NCBI GenBank assembly: GCA_018262095.1
Contig: JAGTRW010000038.1
Span: 1 to 48,141 of the forward strand
Reading direction: 5' to 3'
Origin: Pseudomonadota bacterium
GTDB taxonomy: Bacteria; Pseudomonadota; Gammaproteobacteria; Burkholderiales; Rhodocyclaceae
Length of the DNA: 48,141 nt
The notes under the pieces are model-generated. The model was given only the letters and a program-made list of their open reading frames with translations, did not search any database and was not told where the DNA came from. Numbering within the stretch: the first letter of the stretch is position 1; the number at the start of each line of letters is the position of its first letter. Both the position numbers and the translations under genes were made by a program. Shown here one piece after another: positions 2,870 to 5,093 of this stretch.

Positions 2870-3220
2870 TCACGCAGAGAACGATGACCCGCAACCGCAG
2901 GTTGAAGACGCGTTGGGATTCTTGATCACGAATTGAGACCCCTCAAGCCCTTCCGTATAGTCAATCTCGGCGCCAACCAGATACTGATAACTCATTGGAT
3001 CAACCAGCAGCGTCACCCCGTTCTTCTGCAGAGAGGTATCGTCTTCGTTGGCCACCTCATCAAAGGTAAAGCCATACTGGAAGCCTGAGCACCCGCCTCC
3101 CGTCACGAAAACACGGAGTTTGAGATCAGGATTTCCTTCTTCCTCGATAAGGTCTTTTACCTTGCTCGCTGCGCTATCCGTAAAGATAAACGGCAACGGC
3201 ATCTCGGTCGCTGTATTCAT
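2870..3220 (-). CDS. erpA: Iron-sulfur cluster insertion protein ErpA
   Basis: A-type carrier that passes 4Fe-4S clusters to apo-enzymes such as those of isoprenoid synthesis and respiration. The 116-residue protein has the three conserved cysteines of the HesB/IscA/ErpA fold: C44 in GGGCSGFQY, and C108 and C110 in the C-terminal CGCG. The start has a clear AAGGA site. It is the last gene of the leftward DUF6776-bactofilin-erpA group and ends just before a bidirectional terminator. IscA is the only close alternative; the FDEV and GLEGSQF regions and the context favour ErpA. Confidence 0.94.
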
Positions 3221-3267: not shown

Positions 3268-3681
3268 TCAGCTGTTGGACGCCAGCTTAAGCTCTACCGT
3301 CTTGGCGCCAACGCCGGCACTGACCTGATGCACCAGACGTCCCTGAATCACGGCGCCCTGCTGTATCTCGATCTGATGATACTCAACGTCCCCTGTGACA
3401 CGCGCAGCAGGCAAGAGTTCCAATGATTCGCCAGCGAAGACGGGGCCAATCACGGTTCCGTTGATCACCACATGACCGACCGAAATCGCCCCTTCGACAC
3501 TCGCCTTTTCGCTGATCACCAGGGTGCCTTCCTGCCCATTTTCACTGCTAATATTGCCGCGGACCTCGCCATCAACACGCAGGCCGCCGGAGAAAACCAC
3601 ATTTCCTTCGACCCGGGTACCTGCGCCGATCAGGCTATCAATACTATTCTGGGGAGCTTTCCCATTCTTGATACCGAACAT
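3268..3681 (-). CDS. Bactofilin (polymer-forming cytoskeletal protein)
   Basis: Bactofilins form nucleotide-independent filaments on the inner membrane and position cell-wall enzymes. The 137-residue protein shows the DUF583 beta-helix pattern of repeated short strands with valine and glycine (for example around residues 22-45, GTRVEGNVVF and LRVDGEVRGN), between short disordered ends. The start follows a GGAG site. It sits 12 bp after DUF6776 and 47 bp before erpA on the same strand. A role in shape or envelope organisation is inferred from the family. The nearby M23 peptidase on the opposite strand is a plausible partner but not a proven one. Confidence 0.92.
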   Translation of the reverse strand: MFGIKNGKAPQNSIDSLIGAGTRVEGNVVFSGGLRVDGEVRGNISSENGQEGTLVISEKASVEGAISVGHVVINGTVIGPVFAGESLELLPAARVTGDVEYHQIEIQQGAVIQGRLVHQVSAGVGAKTVELKLASNS

Positions 3682-3693
3682 TCGTTTCTCCGT

Positions 3694-4458
3694 CTAAAGG
3701 TTCACGGTCTGCCTTGCCCGCACCGCACCATCTTGCAGCAGGCGCGCTTCGACCTCCTTAACCACAACACCCGGGGCTACCGAAAAGATGCCTTCAAGCC
3801 GGTGAAAGTGCTTGATCTCGAAACGAAAACGCTGGGGATTCGGCTCAGTACTCGAGGGCAAGGTGATGATAGCATCTTTGCCGCCCTGCTGAACCTTGAG
3901 CAGCAGCTGAAGCGCCCCCTTGAGTTCCTTCCCCTGACGGCCCCCGTTGTTGACCACCAGCATTCGATAACGATATTCGCCGACAGCGCTGCCCAGATCA
4001 ATCCGCAGATGGTCTATCCTGACCCCAAGCTCGTCGCCAGAGTCGGACGCCGGCATCAGCCCTTCAAAGAACGCCAAATCCTCCTTGAGCGCCGCATTCT
4101 CCAGTTCAAGCGCCTTGGCCTGACGTGACAACTGCTTCTGTGTCGTACGCTCAATCTGCAGGCTGCTTTCACCGGAACCCGCGAGGCTGCGCAACTTGGT
4201 CAACTCGCCGTCAAGCTCCATGACATGATTCCTCAGCGACTGAATCTCACGAACCGACTCGTTGCTATGAAACCCGGCAATACGCATTCCAGCATCGTAA
4301 ATCCACGCAGCAAGCGCCAAGGACACCGACAAAATCGCGATCATCGCCAAGGCTCGCCAATACCACGCCACGTGCGTTCTGATCGCCAATTTCGGCGCAC
4401 TGATCCCGAAACGCTGGCGAAGGCGTCTCAGTTTTACGGAAGCCGCGGAAGTTGCCAT
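3694..4458 (-). CDS. DUF6776 family membrane protein with coiled coil
   Basis: Function unknown. The 254-residue protein has a basic cytoplasmic N-terminus, one transmembrane segment (about 32-54) and a long heptad-rich coiled coil (about 66-130). A soluble C-terminal domain (about 145-254) contains the pattern EYRYRMLVVN. This layout matches the DUF6776 family found in Betaproteobacteria next to bactofilin and erpA. Its start overlaps the end of the argC remnant by 25 bp, so its translation may be coupled to that mini-gene. An envelope scaffold working with the bactofilin is a guess from adjacency only. Confidence 0.8.
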   Translation of the reverse strand: MATSAASVKLRRLRQRFGISAPKLAIRTHVAWYWRALAMIAILSVSLALAAWIYDAGMRIAGFHSNESVREIQSLRNHVMELDGELTKLRSLAGSGESSLQIERTTQKQLSRQAKALELENAALKEDLAFFEGLMPASDSGDELGVRIDHLRIDLGSAVGEYRYRMLVVNNGGRQGKELKGALQLLLKVQQGGKDAIITLPSSTEPNPQRFRFEIKHFHRLEGIFSVAPGVVVKEVEARLLQDGAVRARQTVNL

Positions 4459-4598
4459 AGCCCAAAAGTTTCCGCAAAGCCGAACACCCTACTCATGCCT
4501 TGTGCCGCCTGTCCGCCGGCGCCCTTGGCCAAGCCCAACAGGCCCAGCAGTTCGGCGTCAGCACACCTTACGCCACCAACGAATTCGAGCTTGACCAT
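4434..4598 (-). pseudogene. argC: argC remnant: 54-codon in-frame internal deletion
   Basis: This 54-codon reading frame starts at an ATG with a good GAGGAG site and ends in TAA. Residues 1-24 follow the ArgC N-terminus (MVKLEFVGG, then ELLGLLGLA; typical ArgC has [22 protein letters not shown]). Residues 25-54 follow the ArgC C-terminus (KGAGGQAAQGM, then FGFAETFGL, ending in LP). About 285 residues between them, including the catalytic cysteine, are absent, so it cannot be N-acetyl-gamma-glutamyl-phosphate reductase. Promoter, ribosome site and overlap with DUF6776 are kept, so it may persist as a leader that couples translation of the operon. Full-length ArgC has about 340 residues and in related bacteria stands at this spot. 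An intact argC must lie elsewhere if arginine synthesis works; argB is intact at 21.3 kb. Confidence 0.75.
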
Positions 4599-4622
4599 CA
4601 ACCACTCCTCAACAGGTGCGCA

Positions 4623-4651
4623 ATAATAGCCCGCGCGCCTCTAAAAGACAA
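4623..4651 (-). promoter_or_regulatory. Sigma-70 promoter of the argC-remnant/DUF6776/bactofilin/erpA operon
   Basis: On the minus strand TTGTCT (4651-4646) and TATTAT (4628-4623) are 17 bp apart, giving a start near 4616, about 18 nt before the argC-remnant ATG. The -35 box overlaps the T-tract of the rpsI terminator. The match to consensus is moderate but spacing and position are right. Confidence 0.55.
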
Positions 4652-4674
4652 AAGCCGCCCAAGAGGCGGCTTTT
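4650..4674 (-). terminator. Intrinsic terminator after rplM-rpsI
   Basis: AAAAGCCGCC (4650-4659) and GGCGGCTTTT (4665-4674) form a 10-bp stem with a 5-nt loop. On the minus strand the stem is followed by TTTTGTCTTTT. It lies 26 bp beyond the rpsI stop. Confidence 0.9.
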
Positions 4675-4700: not shown

Positions 4701-5093
4701 TTAGCGCTTGGAGAACTGCTTGCGGCGACGTGCCTTATGCAGACCGACCTTCTTACGTTCAACTTCACGCGCATCACGCGTCACAAAACCGGCTTTCGAA
4801 AGCGCTGGCTTGAGAGCGACGTCGTATTCGATCAAGGCCCTGGTAATACCGTGCCGAACCGCACCGGCCTGGCCGGACTCACCACCGCCCGCGACATTGA
4901 CCAGGATGTCGAAGCTGGCGGTTTGCTCGACCAGTTCGAGCGGCTGACGGACAATCATGCGCCCCGTCACACGGGAGAAGAACTCGTCAACCGGCTTGCC
5001 GTTGACCACGATGTTGCCCGTACCGCGCTTCATGAAAACACGTGCCACAGCGCTCTTGCGACGGCCTGTGCCGTAGTAGAAATTTTCAGCCAT
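4701..5093 (-). CDS. rpsI: 30S ribosomal protein S9
   Basis: Small-subunit protein whose C-terminal tail reaches the P-site tRNA. The 130-residue protein shows the family signature in the N-terminus ([15 protein letters not shown]) and the basic end [11 protein letters not shown] with the conserved final lysine-arginine. It follows rplM after 9 bp in the universal rplM-rpsI pair and is followed by an intrinsic terminator. Length and start are normal. Confidence 0.98.

Follow-up and report, generated by a model that had tools for sequence, protein, structure and literature searches.

A 54-codon argC remnant overlapping a DUF6776 gene in a Rhodocyclaceae genome that carries argC_other

According to a review on translationally coupled gene pairs, more than 80% of overlapping pairs share less than 30 bp (PMC12548453). 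A second paper reports that short upstream nonsense open reading frames can boost translation (PMC13255528). In the light of these papers, a leader frame that supplies a downstream gene with ribosomes would be ordinary in kind. The enzyme gene relevant to the locus described here is argC (TIGR01850), which encodes N-acetyl-gamma-glutamyl-phosphate reductase. A second type, argC_other (TIGR01851), performs the same enzymatic step according to the name of its model, but represents a different family branch and lies at a different locus from native argC. Among the literature matches listed, nothing concerns the displacement of argC or a shortened argC in this group.

The window, i.e., the whole stretch of DNA analysed, comprises 48,141 nucleotides. 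On its reverse strand, a frame of 54 codons and a TAA stop (mini-argC, 4434..4598, −) fuses the N-terminal end of argC to its C-terminal end, as judged by translation, alignment, and profile match. The upstream neighbour (4701..5093, −) is a gene that we take to be rpsI (ribosomal protein S9), a name used in the preliminary description rather than obtained by family search. Its 3' side carries a terminator-like hairpin in the sequence (4650..4674, −), located just upstream of a promoter-like TTGTCT-17-TATTAT (4623..4651, −), which is a consensus match, not proof of function, and aligns with the equivalent place in intact relatives. The Shine-Dalgarno sequence GAGGAG of mini-argC (4605..4610, −) has a duplex energy of −8.9 kcal/mol, compared with −12.2 in four intact relatives. 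At its other end, mini-argC overlaps by 25 bp the start of a gene for a DUF6776 protein (3694..4458, −), whose own Shine-Dalgarno sequence is weak (−3.5). A bactofilin gene (3268..3681, −) and an Fe-S_biosyn gene (2870..3220, −; erpA in the preliminary description) follow, both recognised by family search. All the parts listed in that description, namely the overlap, Shine-Dalgarno sequence, start, stop, and a promoter-like site, are indeed present. The layout of a coupling leader, with a start and a Shine-Dalgarno sequence upstream and a stop near the next start, is found in the window. As in the coupled pairs covered by the review (PMC12548453), the upstream frame overlaps the next start; unlike in those pairs, it is a degraded remnant, and the coupling is putative.

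Sequence comparison confirms mini-argC as a genuine fragment of a TIGR01850-type argC at its native site. It shares with argC both gene ends, the place, and the overlap with DUF6776. In a profile search, its C-terminal part matches positions 314–345 of the 345 positions of the TIGR01850 model (E 2.5e-4), and it shares 21 of 30 residues with ArgC from G012, the nearest relative. The N-terminal part gives no match to the argC models in that search. It is identical to G012 ArgC at 10 of 21 residues, a value reached by 1 of 20000 shuffles, and in the alignment it stands directly behind terminator, promoter-like, and Shine-Dalgarno sequences common to seven intact relatives. Chance resemblance to argC is rejected. 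The preliminary description had proposed that an in-frame internal loss of about 285 residues cut argC to a 54-codon mini-gene. This holds: aligned with ArgC, the 54 residues show both ends at the native locus in an open frame, and comparison with the closest relatives, where an intact gene of 1029 bp occupies this position, gives a net loss of 864 bp, or 288 codons. The whole of mini-argC scores 20.4 bits against TIGR01850, below the curated cut-off of 233.6, and has no Pfam match at E ≤ 10. The NAD-binding and dimerisation domains, both found by Pfam search in the intact ArgC of L011, are absent. At the deletion junction, the distance between 4-bp pairs (CTGG in G012, CTTG in G001) is 870 bp, at odds with the net loss of 864 bp.

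A search of the same genome for ArgC dimerisation domains finds one gene, on contig C18. It is full-length (312 aa) and scores 425 bits against the argC_other model TIGR01851 (cut-off 230) and 176 bits against TIGR01850 (cut-off 234). Thus, at the level of genes, a second gene for the step is present where the first was lost, its enzyme activity being predicted. The genus follows the same pattern, with 12 of its 28 genomes carrying argC_other, 13 native argC, 3 neither, and none both. Among 395 genomes of the family, searched at E ≤ 1e-80 with the two lists matched by eye, 85 have argC_other, 273 native argC, 38 neither, and 1 both. About 59 joint occurrences would be expected if the types were independent, a figure that serves as no test statistic because the genomes are related. 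The sole genome with both types, G256 (L057), is 74% complete and carries argC_other on a separate contig; its double presence may reflect contamination or a true intermediate. At least one of the genomes with neither type is an artefact, since its locus (L112, G227) breaks off at a contig end and still includes the terminal part of a native argC. In G021, the argC_other match (L080) holds one in-frame TAA. The suggestion that the deletion followed the replacement of argC elsewhere is well supported by the gene on C18 and by the fact that the two types exclude each other almost completely. The simplest account is that argC_other displaced native argC, which was then lost repeatedly; argC_other may have been acquired by horizontal transfer.

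Seven close relatives (G012, G011, G007, G001, G010, G006, and G026) retain a full argC between rpsI and DUF6776, its end overlapping the DUF6776 start. The arrangement of the window, in which the argC stop follows the DUF6776 ATG by 22 bases, occurs in 20 of 25 intact loci. The 22 named loci retrieved through DUF6776 matches include Propionivibrio, Accumulibacter, and Undibacterium, several being the same records as the numbered genomes. Both argC ends stand at full spacing in 14 of them, 7 have a short spacer, and one is cut by a contig end. Both argC_other and DUF6776 occur in 49 genomes, of which 29 loci were read and the other 20 left out. All but one of those read (28/29) have a short spacer of 121–356 nt from the rpsI stop to DUF6776 without a full argC, with DUF6776 taken to begin at residue 3 in G151, G252, and G331; the exception, with intact argC, is G256. 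DUF6776 has no match in six further genomes of the genus that carry argC_other. In a DUF6776 tree of 30 rows, the labels "lost" and "intact" change seven times, and at least five changes are forced by well-supported branches: argC was lost several times independently in the family. The sister of the window in this tree is G012, with argC intact (fork support 95/88), so the loss in the lineage of the window is young. In G014 and G005, about 20 codons from the end of argC persist together with a start. This one family clearly illustrates, in nature, the repeated displacement of one argC type by another, and it preserves remnants of different stages.

Mini-argC is probably a decaying remnant of the native argC after its displacement by argC_other. 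As regards the order of events, the use of the promoter, and any translation, we infer the following. The native gene would have been freed from constraint once argC_other, at another locus, supplied the enzyme step. The middle of argC would then have been lost in a deletion of about 864 bp that happened to stay in frame (a chance of 1 in 3), and the ends would have drifted. The promoter-like site may have been retained for DUF6776, bactofilin, and erpA, and the last eight codons of mini-argC as the first codons of DUF6776 in another frame. Possibly the mini-frame is still translated and hands ribosomes to DUF6776.

Selection on mini-argC is strongly relaxed. In the part that does not overlap DUF6776, 26 of 129 bases separate the window from a minimal ancestor. 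Of these differences, 21 are nonsynonymous and 5 synonymous, and they alter 18 residues, against 16–17 under random change; this ancestor adopts the base of the window wherever any relative has it, so silent changes are undercounted. The raw pN/pS of the window branch is 0.49–0.84 in 15 of 15 three-way comparisons with pairs of relatives, and the plain dN/dS between the window and a relative is 0.22–0.41 in the four of six cases that allow its calculation. For the same 43 codons, pairs of intact genes give a dN/dS of 0.02–0.08 in nine of nine cases (G006 was excluded from the ancestors, dN/dS, and three-way counts). From a majority ancestor there are 47 differences with 20 residue changes, fewer than the 26–27 expected under full neutrality (range 22–31). 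The whole branch is thus not strictly neutral, which may be explained by time before the loss, as the branch spans this period too. Purifying selection is strongly relaxed, though over the whole branch short of strict neutrality.

The preliminary description had argued that retention of all these parts would be rare in a random pseudogene. This argument is weakened because the stop and the overlap lie in codons of DUF6776 and the promoter-like site recurs in six other loss loci; the relaxed selection also counts against it. A stop at +22 in the argC frame is found in 17 of the 28 loss spacers, some without any recognisable argC, and would be preserved by DUF6776's own codons. The promoter-like site exceeds plain shuffles (0.03 or less) in seven of the 28 loss loci (the window, G002, G014, G005, G027, G079, and G166) and not in the other 21, including G004 of the same genus. 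What still needs explaining, and speaks against mere decay, is the open frame with its start and Shine-Dalgarno sequence. With the 26 substitutions of the minimal ancestor, the chance of meeting no stop is 0.47–0.56, and with the 47 of the majority ancestor it is 0.29–0.37. Frameshifting gaps number 5 per 89 substitutions across five pairs of other loss spacers, two of which (G331–G351 and G002–G027) align poorly, giving a chance of no frameshift of about 0.23 or 0.07, respectively. The joint chance of an open frame is then about 0.12 or 0.02, a rough range for a frame that had been singled out for being open.

This low chance (0.02–0.12) is one reason to consider a translated leader, a real rival reading though the less probable one. 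It says that the shortened frame was kept after displacement to pass ribosomes to a DUF6776 gene with a weak site of its own, the peptide being irrelevant and the open frame essential. In the 25 intact loci, the median Shine-Dalgarno energy is weak for DUF6776 (−4.3 kcal/mol) and strong for argC (−9.2). The argC starts were set at a fixed offset, which makes the argC values of at least G006 and G008 approximate, and the homologous DUF6776 position holds no ATG in G363, G099, G249, G277, and G146. A weak DUF6776 site behind a strongly initiated argC fits the coupling of an overlapping pair, and the window keeps this combination (−8.9 for mini-argC, −3.5 for DUF6776). An independent in-frame mini-argC of 46 codons, with a GTG start, a −12.7 site, and the same overlap with DUF6776, occurs in G166, which belongs to another genus; this second case again argues against simple decay. 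Further in line with a leader, G002 and G027, which lack a remnant frame, carry strong DUF6776 sites (−11.1 and −11.6), and short nonsense frames upstream of a gene can raise translation (PMC13255528).

Several observations weigh against a leader. Both argC ends are recognisable in one frame in just two of the 28 loss loci, the window and G166, and DUF6776 in G166 is itself preceded by a fair site (−9.1). The short form of the window between rpsI and DUF6776, which the preliminary description suggested looking for in relatives, is found in none of the loci read, the G166 frame being of independent origin. At loci such as G058, G079, and G310, a strongly started frame and a strong DUF6776 site are both missing. 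Loss of argC is not accompanied by a significant strengthening of the DUF6776 site relative to intact loci (p 0.11, with loci that are not independent). In the predicted leader, the DUF6776 start is not unusually closed (0.55 unpaired versus 0.32–0.46 in five others), and the boosting frames of PMC13255528 contain a strong internal ribosome site, a feature missing from the window. A decaying pseudogene is likelier than a working leader. It is rather unlikely that the displaced first gene of an operon became a mini translated leader, its promoter, start site, and overlap kept and its enzyme body gone, independently in the lineage of the window (54 codons) and in G166 (46 codons), sustaining the ribosome supply of DUF6776 and bactofilin. 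If true, the leader reading would show how an overlapped downstream gene persists once the gene feeding it ribosomes is gone, and the contrast between G002 and G027, with their strong DUF6776 sites, and the window and G166, with their mini-frames, makes it testable.

A functional small protein with a role of its own is very improbable and was rejected: the frame is open and has a start and a Shine-Dalgarno sequence, but amino-acid change is strongly relaxed, Pfam gives no match, and the ArgC model is matched by the C end only. Least probable of all, and likewise rejected, is the collapse of an intact argC during assembly; the genome is a draft assembly in 82 contigs, but such a collapse is unlikely because the retained ends are heavily substituted relative to the minimal ancestor, argC_other is present in the genome, and argC is likewise missing from this position at 27 other argC_other loci.

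Two side observations concern other genomes. In four loci of the same genus (L113, L116, L117, and L118; G023, G003, G019, and G021), an erpA match lies a few hundred bases after rpsI, with no argC, DUF6776, or bactofilin match. In L099 and L102 (G151 and G252), DUF6776 is preceded by a short frame that begins with MNR, looks like the end of argC, and is similar in both species; the DUF6776 start of these two genomes is apparently farther upstream than usual.
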